Assembly: GCF_023734095.1 (NCBI RefSeq)
Contig: NZ_AP024620.1
Span: 306,501-370,500 of the forward strand
Source: Moorella sp. Hama-1
GTDB lineage: Bacteria > Bacillota > DSM-521 > Neomoorellales > Neomoorellaceae
DNA length: 64,000 bases
Direction of reading: 5' to 3'
The first letter of the stretch is position 1. Each line of letters opens with the position of its first letter. Positions 13,254 through 64,000 of the stretch are shown here, piece by piece. Below the pieces are notes generated by a model. That model saw nothing but the letters and a program-made list of their open reading frames with translations, did not search any database and had not been told where the DNA came from. The position numbers were made by a program, and so were the translations under genes.

Positions 13254-13282
13254 TTGACACCTAAAAAAAGGCTATTTATAAT
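13254..13282 (+). promoter_or_regulatory. consensus sigma-A promoter of the M-box leader
   Basis: TTGACA (13254-13259), exactly 17 bp, TATAAT (13277-13282): a perfect match to the housekeeping consensus. A strong promoter upstream of a terminating riboswitch means output is set by the RNA. Confidence 0.9.
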
Positions 13283-13313
13283 GAAAGAGTAGGGCGTAAT
13301 ACTTTTCCTAAAA

Positions 13314-13473
13314 CCTTCGTTAGGTGAGGCTTCTGCATAGACAGACGCCACTGCCCGGAAACGTCGAAAGACGCCAATGGGTCAACAGGTATTACCGGCT
13401 TAAGGTTTTACCTAATGTGGCTGAGAAAACTCTCTAGCTATGCACGTGCCAAAGCTCAACGAGTGGGGGTATA
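13314..13473 (+). promoter_or_regulatory. M-box (ykoK) Mg2+-sensing riboswitch
   Basis: The leader contains the conserved M-box blocks in order: CGTTAGGTGAGGC near 13318, GCCACTGCCC near 13347, GTCGAAAGACGCCAATGGG and GTCAACAG across 13363-13388, CTTAAGG near 13399, AGCTATGC near 13437 and TGCCAAAGCTCAACGAG ending at 13473. This is the Mg2+-responsive ykoK RNA, in which bound Mg2+ favours a downstream terminator. A perfect terminator follows at 13497. The unusual point is the downstream gene: an ABC transporter rather than MgtE, CorA or a P-type Mg ATPase. Confidence 0.92.
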
Positions 13474-13496
13474 TAGGGTTGTTTTTAATGACTCTA

Positions 13497-13522
13497 AGTC
13501 TTCCCCCATGGGAAGACTTTTT
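13497..13522 (+). terminator. regulated terminator of the M-box
   Basis: AGTCTTCCC (13497-13505), loop CCAT, GGGAAGACT (13510-13518) and a run of T's. It stands 24 nt behind the riboswitch core and just before the SD of the permease gene. Confidence 0.92.
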
Positions 13523-13544
13523 AATTGGTTAGGAGGTGAATCCA

Positions 13545-15266
13545 GTGAACCGGGTAACCAATCTAGCCCTGACCATGATTGTGGCCGCCCTTTTAATCTC
13601 CTTCGCCTACTTTGCCTACCAGGGACACCGGGCGCTGAGCCTGGCGGGGGGGACGGAGGTCGTTACCAGCATCGGCGTCCTGCCGTACTATGCCTTCCGT
13701 TCTTTCCTGCGTATGCTGGTGGCTTATATCTTATCCCTCCTTTTTACCCTTACTTATGGCTATAAAGCCGGGACCGATACCCGGGCCGAGCGCTGGCTGA
13801 TCCCCATCCTGGATATCCTGCAGTCGGTGCCCATCCTGGGCTTCTTCCCGGCGGCCGTTTACTTCTTTGTCTCCCTCTTCCAGGGCCGCTTGCTGGGCGT
13901 AGAACTGGCCTCGATTTTCCTTATCTTTACCAGCCAGGCCTGGAATATGACCTTCGGTTTCTACGAGTCCCTGACTACCATCCCCCGGGATCTCCAGGAA
14001 GCCACCGTAGCCTACCGGGTCAACGGCTGGCGTCGTTTCCGCACCCTTTACCTGCCGGCGGGCATTCCCAAGTTGGTTTACAACAGCATTATGTCCTGGG
14101 CCGGGGGCTGGTACTTTCTCATTGCCGCTGAAATTATCGCCATCGGCCCGGTGGAGTATTCCCTGCCGGGATTGGGCAGCTATTTGATCCGGACGACGGA
14201 AAAAGGGGAGCTGGGCCTGACCCTGGCCGGCCTCCTGACCCTGGTGGCTTTAATCACCATGATGAATATCTTCATCTGGCGGCCCCTCTCCACCTGGGCG
14301 GAAAACTTTAAATACGAGTTTGGCAGCGGCGGCGGTACCCGCCAACCGGAGGGCTGGGGCTACCGCCTGTGGTGGCAGGCTCCAGGTTTTCGGGAGGTCC
14401 GGAACGGCGTAGTTAAAGGCGGGGCCTTCCTGGCCCGGGCCGGGTCCGGTTTGGTCAAGGGCCTGGCTCCGGAGCCGGAAAAATGGCGGCGGTGGTGCCG
14501 TTACCTGGAGTGGTTGCGGCGCCTGGGGGCCGGGGTTCTGGGCCTGTTCCTGGTCTATGCCCTGGTCCGGGGCTTGCTGGCCCTGGGCACCCTTTTCCTG
14601 GAACCCTGGCAGCCCCAGGTCTTAAGTATTCCGAAAGCCATGCTGTTCTCTTTCCTCCGCCTGCTGGCAGCCTACCTGATCTCCCTGGCCTGGACCCTGC
14701 CGGTGGCCATCTGGATCGGGCACAACGAGCGGGTATACGAACTGCTGACCCCGGTTTTCGAGATCCTGGCCTCCGTCCCGGCCACGGCCCTGTTTCCCAT
14801 TATCGTGTTTATCCTGGTGGGCCTGACGGGGGGGATGAACCTGGCGGCCGTTTTACTGGTCCTGACGGGGATGCAGTGGTACCTGCTCTTTAACCTTATT
14901 GCCGGAGTGAAGAGCATCCCCGGTGACCTGAAGGAAGCGGCGGCAGCCTTTGGCCTGCGGGGGTATGGCTACCTGCGGCTGGTGGTCCTGCCGGCCATGC
15001 TTCCCTCCCTCATTACCGGCAGTATCACCGCCTGGGGCGGGGGCTGGAACGCCCTGATTGTGGCCGAGTATGTCGTCTACGCCGGGCAGACCTATACAGC
15101 CTTCGGCATTGGCTCTCTGCTGGACACGGCTACCTACGGCAGCGGCAACTTCCAGCTAATTTGGTCCAGCCTCATTGCCATGATGGTGACCATCGTGCTC
15201 ATGAATCGGTTCCTCTGGCGGCGGCTCTATGAAATGGCCGCCCGGAGGTTTAAAATAGAAGTCTGA
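13545..15266 (+). CDS. ABC transporter permease with two fused NitT/TauT-type membrane domains
   Basis: 573 residues from GTG 13545, picked because AGGAGG ends eight bases upstream (an in-frame GTG at 13536 overlaps that SD). Two BPD_transp_1-like halves are visible: each shows six or so hydrophobic segments and an EAA loop (ATVAYRVNGWRRFRTLYLP near residue 160 and AAAAFGLRGYGYLRLVVLP near 470), separated by a charged linker near residue 265-330. So one polypeptide supplies both channel halves. No substrate-binding protein gene is adjacent. An M-box riboswitch precedes it, which points to transport of Mg2+ or something needed when Mg2+ is low. The ATPase follows 14 bases downstream. Confidence 0.9.
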   Translation: MNRVTNLALTMIVAALLISFAYFAYQGHRALSLAGGTEVVTSIGVLPYYAFRSFLRMLVAYILSLLFTLTYGYKAGTDTRAERWLIPILDILQSVPILGFFPAAVYFFVSLFQGRLLGVELASIFLIFTSQAWNMTFGFYESLTTIPRDLQEATVAYRVNGWRRFRTLYLPAGIPKLVYNSIMSWAGGWYFLIAAEIIAIGPVEYSLPGLGSYLIRTTEKGELGLTLAGLLTLVALITMMNIFIWRPLSTWAENFKYEFGSGGGTRQPEGWGYRLWWQAPGFREVRNGVVKGGAFLARAGSGLVKGLAPEPEKWRRWCRYLEWLRRLGAGVLGLFLVYALVRGLLALGTLFLEPWQPQVLSIPKAMLFSFLRLLAAYLISLAWTLPVAIWIGHNERVYELLTPVFEILASVPATALFPIIVFILVGLTGGMNLAAVLLVLTGMQWYLLFNLIAGVKSIPGDLKEAAAAFGLRGYGYLRLVVLPAMLPSLITGSITAWGGGWNALIVAEYVVYAGQTYTAFGIGSLLDTATYGSGNFQLIWSSLIAMMVTIVLMNRFLWRRLYEMAARRFKIEV

Positions 15267-15280
15267 AGGGGGTGGCGGGG

Positions 15281-16030
15281 ATGGCCTTGCTGGAAGTTAA
15301 CCATGTCTTTAAGACTTACACCGATGCCAACCGCTCGCTAACGGTCCTTGATGATATATCCTTCAGTATCGCCAAGGGGGAGTTTGTCTGCCTGGTGGGG
15401 CCTTCCGGTTCCGGCAAGAGTACCCTCCTGCGGATGGTCGCCGGGTTAATCCAGCCATCCCGGGGCGAAATCTTTTACCGGGGGCAGCAGGTCAAGGGTG
15501 TTATGGATAAAATAGCCATGGTCTTCCAGTCTTTCGCCCTGTTACCATGGCTGACGGTCATGGGTAATGTCGCCCTGGGGTTGGAGGCCAAAGGTATCCC
15601 CCGGGAAGAAAGGGAAGCCCTGGCCAGCAAATATATCGATAAAGTCGGCCTGGATGGTTTCGAAGAGGCCTACCCCCGGGAGCTTTCCGGGGGTATGAAA
15701 CAGCGGGTGGGCATTGCCCGCGCCCTGACCATGGAACCGGAACTCCTGTGCATGGATGAACCCTTCTCCGCCCTGGACGCCTTTACGGCCCAGAACCTGC
15801 GGGAGGAGGTCCTGGACCTGTGGCTGGACTTCTCTCTACCGGTCAAATCGGTCCTCATGGTGACCCACGGCATTGAGGAAGCCGTCTTTATGGCCGACCG
15901 GGTGGTCGTCCTCTCGAAAAGGCCGGCTCGGGTCCTGGCCGACGTGCAGGTGGACCTGCCCCGGCCGCGGAACATGAAAGACGAAGCCTTCGCCCGGGTG
16001 ACGGATAAGATCTACTCGCTGCTGTTTTAG
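15281..16030 (+). CDS. ABC transporter ATPase, NitT/TauT type, partner of double permease
   Basis: 249 residues from ATG 15281 (SD AAGGGGGTG); an in-frame GTG nine bases earlier is possible. Walker A GPSGSGKST, Q-loop VFQSFALLPW, signature LSGGMKQRVGIARAL, Walker B LLCMDEPFSALDA and the switch His in VTHGIEEAV are all intact, so it should be active. It is shorter than transporter ATPases of this group that carry a C-terminal AAA-associated domain; a separate gene for just such a domain lies at 17468. Co-transcribed with the permease under the M-box. Confidence 0.92.
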   Translation: MALLEVNHVFKTYTDANRSLTVLDDISFSIAKGEFVCLVGPSGSGKSTLLRMVAGLIQPSRGEIFYRGQQVKGVMDKIAMVFQSFALLPWLTVMGNVALGLEAKGIPREEREALASKYIDKVGLDGFEEAYPRELSGGMKQRVGIARALTMEPELLCMDEPFSALDAFTAQNLREEVLDLWLDFSLPVKSVLMVTHGIEEAVFMADRVVVLSKRPARVLADVQVDLPRPRNMKDEAFARVTDKIYSLLF

Positions 16031-17467: not shown

Positions 17468-17947
17468 GTGGATGTTGGACCTTTACCCCAGGTGGGTATA
17501 GGGATGGTCATCGGCCTGCTAGAGATGTTGGAGGATGCCCGGGGGAGGGAAGATATTTTTAAACTTGCCGGCAGTCTTTCCATGGAACTGGATGATATCG
17601 GCCCGGTAATCGAGGCCGCCAGGGTGCTGGGCTTTATTGAGACGACCAATGGTGACATAACCCTCACCAAACTTGGCACCAAACTTTTGAATGCCGATAT
17701 AAATGAACGTAAGGATATAATCGCCGGTAGGCTTCAGGAATTACCGGCTTTTAAGGAAGTTTTGCATTTGATTAAATCCGGGCGCGGCCAGCAGGTACGT
17801 CGGGAACAGGTAGTCAGGCGCTTTGCTCGTAGAATGTCCGACGAGGACGCCGAAGTGCTTTTTAAAACCGTGGTCGATTGGGGCCGCTTCGCCGAGATTA
17901 TCGGTTACGATACTAAGGGCGAATTTTTATTCCTGGATGAGGAATAA
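17468..17947 (+). CDS. stand-alone AAA-associated C-terminal domain (ABC-ATPase accessory)
   Basis: 159 residues from GTG 17468; the frame is closed by TAG 18 bases upstream. The sequence resembles the AAA-associated C-terminal domain (PF09821 type) normally fused behind the ATPase of nitrate/sulfonate-like ABC transporters: VGIGMVIGLLEMLEDARGREDIFKLA, then a winged-helix-like part with GFIETTNGDITLT, and a DEDAEVLFKTVVDWGRFAEI segment. Here it is a separate gene 1.4 kb from the M-box-controlled transporter, whose ATPase lacks the domain, so the two may work together. A TATAAT -10 sits at 17409-17414 but no good -35 is seen. Confidence 0.75.
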   Translation: MDVGPLPQVGIGMVIGLLEMLEDARGREDIFKLAGSLSMELDDIGPVIEAARVLGFIETTNGDITLTKLGTKLLNADINERKDIIAGRLQELPAFKEVLHLIKSGRGQQVRREQVVRRFARRMSDEDAEVLFKTVVDWGRFAEIIGYDTKGEFLFLDEE

Positions 17948-42444: not shown

Positions 42445-43716
42445 GTGAGTATTTACCTTAAGAAAGGCAGGTTGATGGGCAGGGAAGCCAAAAGGGAAAT
42501 TGCTCTGACGCGAGCAGCCGAACTAAAGGCCAGGATCGTTGATTACCTGGAGGAAAAGGAGAAACTCCCCAGCGGCATCGAGGCAGCAGCCGAGATTGCC
42601 GCCAACAAGGAGCGTATCCTGGCCTATTTTGGCGCCGGGGAGGACGAGTGGCAGGACTGGCGCTGGCAGTTGACCCACCGCATTACTTCCGTCGCGACCC
42701 TGGCGGAACTTCTGCCCCTGACCACCGCGGAAAGGGAAGCCATCCAGCAAGTGGAACGGACCTACCGCTGGGCCGTCTCGCCCTATTACCTGAGCTTAAT
42801 GGGAGCTGAACCTGACTGTCCCGTACGCCGCCAGGCCCTGCCCAGCGCAGCCGAGCTGGAGGACGAGGTGGGTATCCTGGACCCCATGGATGAAGAACTG
42901 ACTTCGCCGGCACCGGCCATTACCCGTCGCTACCCGGATCGCTTGATCATCAACGTTACCAACCAGTGCGCCATGTACTGCCGCCACTGCCAGCGGCGCC
43001 GGAACATCGGTGAAGTCGACCGCGGCCGCAGCCCCCGGGAACTGGAACAGGCCCTCCAGTACATCCGCCAGAACGAAGAGATTCGTGACGTTCTCATTAC
43101 CGGCGGCGACGCTCTAATGCTTAATGATGGCCTCCTGGACTGGTTATTGACGGAGCTGGATCATATTCCCCATGTCGAGATCAAGCGCCTGGGCACCAGG
43201 GTACCGGTGACTATGCCCCAGCGGATTACGCCGGAGCTCTGCCAGGTACTGGCCAAGCACCCACCCCTTTACCTCAATACCCAGTTCAACCATCCCCGGG
43301 AGGTTACCCTGGAGGCTAAAGAGGCCTGCGACCGCCTGGTTCAGGCCGGGGTGGTCCTGGGCAACCAGGCAGTTTTACTCAAGGGCGTCAACAACCGGCC
43401 CTTCATCATGCGTAAGCTGAACCAGGAGCTGTTGAAAATAAGGGTCCGGCCCTACTATATCTTCCACGCCAAACCGGTCAAGGGGACCACCCACTTTATT
43501 ACCTCCATCAGGGAAGGCGTGGAGATCATGGATCAGCTCCGGGGTTATACCTCCGGCCTGGCCGTACCCACTTATATAATCAACGCCCCCCACGGCCTGG
43601 GCAAGACACCTATCCTGCCTCAGTATGTCGTCGCCCGTAACGAAAACCAGGTAGTCCTGCGGACCTGGGAAAAACGGACGATCTTCTATCCCGACCTGGG
43701 CCGCCAGCGTCGCTAA
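42445..43716 (+). CDS. eam: glutamate 2,3-aminomutase (radical SAM/PLP, lysine aminomutase family)
   Basis: 423 residues from GTG 42445 (SD AAGGAGG). Radical-SAM ligands Cys175, Cys179 and Cys182 lie in CAMYCRHC; the PLP lysine is Lys387 in APHGLGKTP. The two aspartates that hold lysine in lysine 2,3-aminomutase (Asp293 and Asp330 in the clostridial enzyme) are replaced by Lys343 (in FHAKPVKG) and Asn380 (in YIINAP), at the same 37-residue spacing. This Lys/Asn pair is the hallmark of glutamate 2,3-aminomutase, which makes beta-glutamate, a compatible solute. Control by c-di-AMP agrees with an osmolyte role. Substrate assignment is from these residues, not tested. Confidence 0.85.
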   Translation: MSIYLKKGRLMGREAKREIALTRAAELKARIVDYLEEKEKLPSGIEAAAEIAANKERILAYFGAGEDEWQDWRWQLTHRITSVATLAELLPLTTAEREAIQQVERTYRWAVSPYYLSLMGAEPDCPVRRQALPSAAELEDEVGILDPMDEELTSPAPAITRRYPDRLIINVTNQCAMYCRHCQRRRNIGEVDRGRSPRELEQALQYIRQNEEIRDVLITGGDALMLNDGLLDWLLTELDHIPHVEIKRLGTRVPVTMPQRITPELCQVLAKHPPLYLNTQFNHPREVTLEAKEACDRLVQAGVVLGNQAVLLKGVNNRPFIMRKLNQELLKIRVRPYYIFHAKPVKGTTHFITSIREGVEIMDQLRGYTSGLAVPTYIINAPHGLGKTPILPQYVVARNENQVVLRTWEKRTIFYPDLGRQRR

Positions 43717-61550: not shown

Positions 61551-61560
61551 AGTGAGGCCC

Positions 61561-64000
61561 ATGGTTGTTGAACCACCCGGCATTTATCCGGTACACCTGC
61601 TACCAGGAAGGGTGCGCCTGCACGTGCCCGGCCTGAAGGGTAACCGGGCTTTCGCCCGGCAAATAATTGCCCGCCTTCCCCGGAGCGCCGGTATCCGCCA
61701 GGTTACGGCTAACCCACGCTCCGGACGGGTCCTGGTTTATTACGACCCGGCACAGATCCAGTTAGCCAGGCTTATAACCATTCTGAAGGACTTTTCCGCG
61801 GCACCGGGTAATCTTCACGCCGGAAGGGCGACTGCAAGCCGGGTTATTGCCACACCAGGGGCCAACCTTGCTCAATATGGCGCCAACCGGGCCGCCCGGG
61901 AGGTGGCGGCCACGGCCAGCGTGCCGCAATGGCACCTCTTGGGAACTGATGACGTACTGGGGCATCTGGCCACGCCGCCAGGACAGGGCCTGACCGAAGC
62001 CGAAGCCCGGCGCCGGCAAGAGGTCTTTGGTGCCAATGCCCTACCCGATCCTGCAAGAATTTCACCCTGGCAGCTGTTTAAACAACAATTCCAGGACCTC
62101 ATGGTGCGGGTGCTCATGGCGGCCAGCGGCCTCTCCTTGATATTAGGGCGGGTGCGGGACGCCGTCTTTGCCCTGGGGGTAGTGATCATGAACGCCGTCC
62201 TGGGGGTTTGGCAGGAGTTAAAGGCCGCCCGCTCCCTGTCTTCCCTGGGAAAACTGGCGCCGCCCACGGCCCTGGTGACCCGCGCCGGCCGGGAGCAGCG
62301 CCTCCCGGCCGGCGCCCTGGTGCCGGGGGACATTATCCACCTCCAGGCCGGCGACCGGGTGCCGGCCGACGCCCGCCTCCTGGAGGCCGTGGATCTGGAG
62401 GTAGAGGAGGCTAACCTCACCGGGGAGAGCGTACCGGTAAAAAAACAGGTGGCGCCCCTGGGGGAAGCGGACCTGCCCCTGGGGGAGCGCAGCAACATGG
62501 TTTTTATGGGAACCAGTATCACCCGCGGCCGCGGCCGGGCCGTAGTTGTCAGTACAGGCATGGCGACCCAGATGGGCCAGGTGGCCGGGCTGCTGCAGGA
62601 GAGGGAATTACAAACCCCCCTCCAGGCGAGCCTGGGGGAACTGGGCCGGGTCCTGGCCTACGGTTGCCTGGCCATTTCCGGGGCGGTCCTCATCGGCGGC
62701 CTGCTGTGGGGCCGGGGTCTGATGGCTATGGTCATGACGGCCGCCAGCCTGGCGGTGGCGGCCATTCCCGAGGGTATGCCGGTTATCGTCGCCCTGGCCC
62801 TGGCCTTCGGCGTCCAGCGGATGGCCCGGCGGCGGGTAATCGTCCGCCGCCTGCCGGCCCTGGAGACCCTGGGCTGCACCACGGTCATCTGCACCGATAA
62901 AACCGGTACCCTGACCAGGAATGAGATGACCGTCCGCACCGTGGCCTGCGGCCGCGAGCTTTGGCAAGCCGGCGGCGAGGGTTACCGGCCGGAGGGCAGC
63001 TTTAACCTCCAGGGCCCGGGGACCACGGAAGCGGCAGGGGAGCTGCGGCACTTCCTGACCCTGGCCGCCCTGTGCAGCGATGCCCGCCTGGTATCCCGGG
63101 GCCGGGGTGGCCGGATCAAGTGGACGGTGGAGGGCGATCCTACGGAGGGAGCCCTGCTGGTGGCAGCCAGGAAGGCCGGCCTGGATCTGGACGAGCTGCA
63201 AAGGAATTACGCCCGTTGCCAGGAGGTCCCCTTCAACTCCGAGGACCGTTGTATGACGGTCCTGACCCGGGACGGGCAGGGCCGCCAGCTCTTGATAACC
63301 AAAGGCGCCCCGGAGGTAATTCTGGATCGCTGCGACCGGATGCGCTGGCGGGGCCAGATAGTGCCTCTCACCCCGGCCCGGCGCCGCTTGCTGGAGCAGC
63401 GCAGCGAAGAAATGGCCACTCAGGCCCTGCGGGTCCTGGCCGTCGCCTACAACGAGGATGTTGACGCCGGCGCCGGTTCACCCCTCATCTTCAGCGGCCT
63501 GGCCGGTATGCTGGACCCGCCGCGGCCGGAGGTCCGCCGGGCTATCGCCCGTTGCCAGGCCGCCGGCATCAAGGTAGTGATGATTACCGGCGACCACCAA
63601 GCCACGGCGACGGCTATCGCTAGGGAACTGGGGATCCTGACCCCCGGCGGGGCGGTCCTAACCGGTCAGGAACTGGAGACCCTCACGGATGCCGAGCTGG
63701 ACCGCTTGGTGCCAGCAATCCAGGTCTTCGCCCGCACCTCGCCTGAGCATAAGCTGCGCATTGTCCGGGCCTGGCAGCGGGCCGGCGGGGTGGTGGCCAT
63801 GACCGGTGACGGCGTTAACGATGCCCCGGCCGTCAAGGCGGCCGACATCGGCCTGGCCATGGGGCAGAATGGTGCCGACGTCACCCGGGAGGCCGCCGGC
63901 CTGGTGCTGACGGATGACAACTTTGTCACCATCGTCACCGCCGTCGAAGAGGGCCGGACCATTTACGCCAATATCCGCAAGGCCATCCGCTACCTCCTGG
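61561..64000 (+). CDS. P2A-type cation-transporting ATPase with HMA-like N-terminal domain (3' end outside window)
   Basis: Open from ATG 61561 to the last base (813 residues so far). The first ~75 residues form the same HMA_2-like domain as in the pseudo-ATPase (LLPGRVRLHVPGLKG). The body has cation-ATPase motifs in order: LTEAEARRRQEVFGANAL, LTGESVPV near 285, AAIPEGMPVIVALALAFG near 400, the phosphorylation site CTDKTGTLTRNEM (Asp446), KGAPE, MTGDGVNDAPAVKAADIGLAMG near 750. All residues for activity are present. PEGMP is typical of Ca2+/Mn2+ P2A pumps. The C-terminal membrane helices lie outside the window. Confidence 0.93.
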   Translation, partial: MVVEPPGIYPVHLLPGRVRLHVPGLKGNRAFARQIIARLPRSAGIRQVTANPRSGRVLVYYDPAQIQLARLITILKDFSAAPGNLHAGRATASRVIATPGANLAQYGANRAAREVAATASVPQWHLLGTDDVLGHLATPPGQGLTEAEARRRQEVFGANALPDPARISPWQLFKQQFQDLMVRVLMAASGLSLILGRVRDAVFALGVVIMNAVLGVWQELKAARSLSSLGKLAPPTALVTRAGREQRLPAGALVPGDIIHLQAGDRVPADARLLEAVDLEVEEANLTGESVPVKKQVAPLGEADLPLGERSNMVFMGTSITRGRGRAVVVSTGMATQMGQVAGLLQERELQTPLQASLGELGRVLAYGCLAISGAVLIGGLLWGRGLMAMVMTAASLAVAAIPEGMPVIVALALAFGVQRMARRRVIVRRLPALETLGCTTVICTDKTGTLTRNEMTVRTVACGRELWQAGGEGYRPEGSFNLQGPGTTEAAGELRHFLTLAALCSDARLVSRGRGGRIKWTVEGDPTEGALLVAARKAGLDLDELQRNYARCQEVPFNSEDRCMTVLTRDGQGRQLLITKGAPEVILDRCDRMRWRGQIVPLTPARRRLLEQRSEEMATQALRVLAVAYNEDVDAGAGSPLIFSGLAGMLDPPRPEVRRAIARCQAAGIKVVMITGDHQATATAIARELGILTPGGAVLTGQELETLTDAELDRLVPAIQVFARTSPEHKLRIVRAWQRAGGVVAMTGDGVNDAPAVKAADIGLAMGQNGADVTREAAGLVLTDDNFVTIVTAVEEGRTIYANIRKAIRYLL

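Follow-up and report, generated by a model that had tools for sequence, protein, structure and literature searches.

The M-box riboswitch in the 64,000-nucleotide stretch of Moorella sp. Hama-1 DNA analysed here (the window, to which all positions refer) heads what is likely a Mg2+-repressed operon encoding an ATP-driven Mg2+ importer composed of a fused double permease, an ATPase and a separate AAA_assoc_C protein (Table 1). In close relatives, the position behind this switch is occupied by standard Mg2+ transporters, and the ABC transporter, of a kind not known for moving Mg2+, therefore probably represents a class of bacterial magnesium importer that has been overlooked. Direct computation covers the RNA elements of the leader with their alternative pairing, the assignment of the genes to families, the repeated occurrence of M-box and permease together, the exchange of the ABC genes for CorA or MgtE and the neighbouring genes.

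Table 1. Features of the M-box leader and the transporter genes in the window
Feature	Position	Strand	Basis
Sigma-A type promoter, TTGACA-17-TATAAT	13254–13282	+	Exact, 12/12 consensus bases
M-box (Mg2+-I) riboswitch aptamer, complete	13309–13474	+	RF00380 covariance model, 148.9 bits
Predicted antiterminator, encloses second hairpin	13464–13508	+	Leader MFE minus terminator 3' arm
Intrinsic terminator and U-run	13496–13523	+	10-bp stem, -14.3 kcal/mol
Fused double ABC permease, COG4986-type, type I importer fold	13536–15266	+	Two BPD_transp_1 halves
ABC ATPase, TauB/NrtD/CmpD-like, 252 aa	15272–16030	+	ABC_tran match
AAA_assoc_C (PF09821) winged-helix-type protein	17468–17947	+	112 bits

A cmscan search of the window with RF00380 (gathering score 44) recovered the aptamer with E = 7e-34 over all model positions (1–169), and this full-length aptamer is the sole M-box found by RF00380 search in the single-contig 3.32 Mb genome. 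The 3' edge of the promoter lies 26 bases before it, and a TTGACA box with a TATAAT-like -10 box preceding the M-box is retained in nearly all members of the genus. The terminator consists of a hairpin at 13496–13519 followed by TTT. Folded with this terminator in full, the leader is predicted to retain both aptamer and terminator, and the folding z-score for the whole leader is -4.9 against 200 dinucleotide shuffles. The original prediction of a perfect promoter, a complete M-box and a terminator is thus borne out in each part. In the predicted structures, the terminator is mutually exclusive with pairing of the 3' strand of aptamer helix P1, in which, once the terminator 3' arm is left out of the fold, UGGGGG (13464–13469) of that strand pairs with CCCCCA (13503–13508) of the terminator 5' arm; alternative pairing of this type is predicted in 25 of the 29 leaders compared. 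When the terminator arm was simply shuffled against P1, significance was weak for some of the leaders, and the alternative pairing therefore rests on whole-leader folding. The leader architecture, as folded, is the normal OFF-switch layout of transcription-regulating M-boxes, and by analogy with the RF00380 family Mg2+ would be its ligand in Moorella. M-box-like DNA corresponding to 13317–13468 is also present on the Alicyclobacillus plasmids NZ_CP104068.1, CP071185.1 and NZ_CP066340.1 (83–86% identity over 120–150 bases), in stretches without a listed gene. The window holds another riboswitch, of the c-di-AMP type (RF00379, 42168–42362, 94.9 bits), directly upstream of an ORF (42445–43716) that by eye looks like a lysine/glutamate 2,3-aminomutase, an arrangement compatible with riboswitch control over the synthesis of beta-amino-acid compatible solutes.

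The permease (576 aa) likely starts at GTG 13545, 8 nt past the Shine–Dalgarno sequence AGGAGG (13531–13536). The nearest NCBIfam models of the ATPase are SaoA/TauB/NrtCD, each under its own cut-off, and the protein is closest to NrtD and CmpD. Two BPD_transp_1 halves and a TauB/NrtD-like ATPase agree with the earlier description of a double-permease NitT/TauT-like transporter, with all specific NCBIfam equivalogs below cut-off. The models for CorA, MgtE and MgtA (PF01544, PF01769 and TIGR01524) gave no match in the permease in Pfam and NCBIfam scans, and none in the ATPase (Pfam; NCBIfam, best 25 of 188). No solute-binding-protein gene is present among the window genes scanned around the permease and ATPase (glycerate kinase, FolB, GTP cyclohydrolase I, thioesterase and malic enzyme), which agrees with the binding protein having been reported as missing; none is annotated beside eight relatives, and none appears among the family matches listed for 48 neighbours (25 of 67 families).

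The AAA_assoc_C component is an addition of the present analysis. We count it as part of the system because its gene directly follows the ATPase gene in three genomes of the family (G011, G014 and G017) and because it forms the C-terminal domain of the ATPase in G041 and in most relatives from other phyla. In the window, it is a separate gene 1.4 kb downstream of the ATPase gene, and its product is the putative split-off C-terminal domain of the relatives' ATPase. Within the genus, opposite-strand genes separate the two. The content of this gap, roughly 2.8–4.2 kb past the M-box (L032, L035, L041 and other genus members), varies: mostly it is an opposite-strand, 450-aa citrate-synthase-like gene (by eye), and in the window genome, G005 and G006 it is FolB and GTP cyclohydrolase I. 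A fused duplicated permease and an ATPase accompanied by PF09821 characterize the COG4986/AAA_assoc_C group, the COG4986 label being taken from the literature (PMC5746004).

An AlphaFold model of the permease (pLDDT 88, pTM 0.85) settles which fold class the protein belongs to but gives no position for the substrate site; the polar residues that are invariant (D93, E123, N137, N183, E199, N453, N505 and E511) are candidates only. The model matches CmpB and NrtB half by half and the fused ferric-ion permease FbpB along its full length. Type I ABC importers normally require a binding protein, and that none was seen counts against Mg2+ import, as does the finding that the permease is nearest by sequence and fold to CmpB and NrtB, which transport the anions bicarbonate and nitrate. 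Because the closest relatives of solved structure are anion carriers, the main rival is a system for which an anion or a chelate of Mg2+ (bicarbonate, phosphate, citrate or a similar compound) would be the imported solute, with the M-box coupling the two, either because Mg2+ enters as the complex or because the anion is required at low Mg2+. COG4986 has in fact been named an anion system (PMC4837290). The missing binding protein is nonetheless unlike the known anion systems, and we regard import of an anion or chelate as unlikely, in part on the strength of the locus comparison below.

Relatives retain the M-box leader and the divergent glycerate kinase gene but differ in what lies behind the M-box: the ABC pair in G000–G006, G009, G010 and G017, CorA in G008 and MgtE in G015. 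G007 has the same leader followed by CorA, with different upstream genes. Leader identity to the window is 85% in G008 and 82% in G015, versus 58–65% for M-box leaders at other loci. In a class sample of 22 genomes, the permease is found in 12, in every case directly behind an M-box and never together with M-box–CorA (G007, G008 and G012) or M-box–MgtE (G015); the search of these 22 genomes gave no permease match in those without an M-box. Absence of the permease weighs less in G007 and G008, whose assemblies are incomplete (84% and 58%), than in G012 and G015, which are 97–100% complete. On gene content, this pattern reads as one Mg2+ uptake system replaced by another under one regulator, and one-for-one replacement by CorA or MgtE at the same locus fits the bare ion better than an anion or chelate. 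CorA and MgtE behind the same leader at the same locus, mutual exclusion in the class and the census targets given below favour a new type of Mg2+-linked import, the first of the two options that had been raised. The M-box of G013 (L044) lies at a contig end, and searches of that genome gave no match to CorA, MgtE or the permease.

The window genome keeps one M-box-free CorA, and the ABC system is therefore not its sole Mg2+ route, a further point against Mg2+ import by the ABC system. MgtE was not found in this genome, and no MgtA passes the cut-off. An account of the ABC system as a consequence of the loss of other Mg2+ importers is thus only partly true, the M-box-free CorA remaining. At 61552–64000, the window contains the start of a P-type cation ATPase with ~120 extra N-terminal residues, perhaps of Ca2+ type, which scores below the Mg2+-ATPase family cut-off.

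A genome scan placed relatives of the permease at no fewer than 571 loci (at least 571) in many bacterial phyla, and we retrieved the best 80 of these. Among 50 genomes of those 80 relatives, an M-box is present in 11 and directly upstream of the permease in nine, namely, two Clostridium, Pelosinus, Lucifera, two Paenibacillus, a Ktedonobacteria MAG, an Anaerolineae MAG and a "Proteobacteria" MAG that clusters with the Ktedonobacteria MAG and is probably mislabelled. Among other loci, 29 were scanned (L131 was left out), and an M-box occurs only in L053, which is the same as G014. A quick tree built from 86 permeases requires seven changes of the M-box label, all forced by supported branches, which indicates that the association arose or was retained separately in several lineages. 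In the phylum sample, the permease is present in 24 of 399 genomes and has an adjacent M-box in 15 of these 24; roughly one in three of the phylum's permeases has none, which weighs against the Mg2+ reading, and in one genome of this sample (G353) the contig starts just before the permease gene. Collecting M-boxes before double-permease genes, as had been proposed, therefore recovers the pairing in several lineages and phyla, and its absence from relatives, named at the outset as a point that would tell against the idea, is not what we find.

Automated annotation labels the ATPase of relatives a nitrate/sulfonate/bicarbonate protein, and this would suit an ordinary sulfonate- or nitrate-type importer that stands behind a chance M-box or behind an RNA with a changed ligand. 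We consider this highly improbable. Chance placement is rejected on the recurrence of the pairing across many lineages and phyla (also PMC5746004), and a changed ligand is disfavoured by an aptamer score in the window as high as those of M-boxes preceding MgtE and CorA, as well as by the same leader driving CorA and MgtE in relatives.

We classified the first genes in the DNA after 136 other M-boxes taken from the phylum and family searches. These targets are MgtE (50), CorA (28), NrmT-type (28, defined as an MgtE_N/PRC protein, a known NrmT partner type, or Nramp as first gene), ABC permease (15), P-type ATPase (9, called on the DKTGT motif) and unclassified (6). The unclassified cases comprise two P-type ATPase start pieces (by eye), two contig ends, one with CorA 1.7 kb on and one with nothing in the stretch examined; an unrelated gene family was found behind none of the 136. 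All targets that could be classified belong either to known classes of Mg2+ transporter or to this permease. The census samples a single phylum. PE/PPE-linked M-boxes exist in mycobacteria and fall outside it.

Genes beside the permease operons, picked by eye, may point in the same direction in several lineages without an M-box. In Mycobacterium sp. 141, the same strand encodes, 90 bp upstream, an MgtA-type Mg2+ ATPase (TIGR01524, 919 bits versus a cut-off of 611). MgtC is encoded 16 bp downstream of the operon in a Pyrinomonadaceae MAG; in Tsukamurella it lies 24 bp upstream, and in Azospirillum two genes separate its position downstream, and Nramp genes occur near the permease operon on Thermus and Mycolicibacterium plasmids. 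Upstream of M-box-bearing operons, we find CorA in Paenibacillus and Nramp in Lucifera. Other ion systems accompany some members (L061, L100, L109 and L101), with KdpC upstream of one, a PiT phosphate carrier upstream of one and TrkA beside two, hinting at a possible role in broader ion homeostasis and to that extent telling against Mg2+ import. PiT carriers can take metal phosphate, and this neighbour would suit import of an anion or chelate; on the other side, the neighbours scanned include no recurrent gene for chelate biosynthesis or anion metabolism. Homeostasis of K+ is linked to that of Mg2+, and KdpC and TrkA, together with the ferric-ion importer FbpBC among the fold matches, could instead indicate that the system handles another cation (K+, Ca2+, Mn2+ or a polyamine) that offsets low Mg2+ in a Mg2+-sparing response. 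That reading is more doubtful still than anion or chelate import, as no census M-box precedes a recognisable K+, Ca2+ or polyamine transporter and the Mg2+-specific neighbours MgtA and MgtC occur in unrelated phyla.

Import of Mg2+ itself under M-box control would work as follows. At high cell Mg2+, the M-box would fold and its P1 helix would hold the GUGGGGG strand, so that the terminator forms and transcription stops. At low Mg2+, this strand would pair with the terminator 5' arm and disrupt the terminator, the transporter would be made and Mg2+ would be restored. The ABC system would thereby serve as high-affinity Mg2+ uptake next to the M-box-free CorA, with Mg2+ as the presumed substrate moving inward, independently of a dedicated binding protein, which the operon does not appear to encode, and with AAA_assoc_C in a putative regulatory role.

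M-boxes nearly always precede CorA, MgtA or MgtE (PMC4072509). Compared with the M-box/ykoK leader systems (RF00380, transcription-terminator platform), the Moorella leader has the same aptamer, promoter, terminator and predicted antiterminator; here it controls an ABC importer, whereas there it controls MgtE, CorA, MgtA or NrmT. NrmT, the Nramp-related protein of Clostridium acetobutylicum, was proposed as a fourth class on similar reasoning, and experiments later confirmed it (PMC4072509). Both belong to families not associated with Mg2+ that turned up behind an M-box, and the ABC system would likewise act as a Mg2+-repressed uptake system, but it belongs to the ATP-driven ABC superfamily, and Mg2+ import is proven for NrmT whereas we infer it here. 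The system resembles NrtBCD/CmpBCD in permease half-fold and ATPase (foldseek E ~1e-6; phmmer 1e-11 and 1e-56) and differs from them in its fused permease halves, AAA_assoc_C partner, lack of a binding protein and Mg2+-linked regulation. The ferric-ion importer FbpBC of Thermus thermophilus (PDB 9j4r) shares a single long type I permease chain and transports a metal cation, but the relationship is remote: the alignment, although it covers the whole query, has 16% identity and a full-chain rmsd of 11.6.

The link between M-box and ABC transporter is not wholly new. It was seen once before, in 2017, in the transcriptome of Bifidobacterium breve, where an M-box precedes a COG4986 ABC transporter (Bbr_0406-0407) for which "metal ion homeostasis" was suggested (PMC5746004); this is the same kind of pairing, as a single case in another phylum, without a comparative or functional test. 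The phrase "ABC transporter" is not present in two Mg2+-transporter reviews, of 2022 and 2026, and a phrase for an ABC-type Mg2+ importer occurs once each in four papers. New here are how widely the pairing occurs, the swap with CorA and MgtE at a single locus, AAA_assoc_C as a partner and, outside the M-box lineages, the Mg2+-related neighbours.

Mg2+ import has so far been credited to CorA, MgtE and MgtA/B and later to NrmT. More tentatively, and with our judgement leaning slightly against, the whole fused-permease/AAA_assoc_C family may form a fifth, general class of bacterial importers dedicated to Mg2+, which would take up the bare ion without a binding protein and use AAA_assoc_C as an internal Mg2+ or ATP brake. 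If so, a widespread ABC family annotated as nitrate/sulfonate/bicarbonate transporters would be reassigned to Mg2+, including in genomes without MgtE such as the present one, and would provide a rare case of an ABC importer of a major cation that works without a binding protein. The required gene set of Liberibacter crescens includes a gene annotated as a duplicated permease component (PMC4837290), which gives the question practical weight, and the substrate of the ABC system is open to direct test through its exchange in place with CorA and MgtE.
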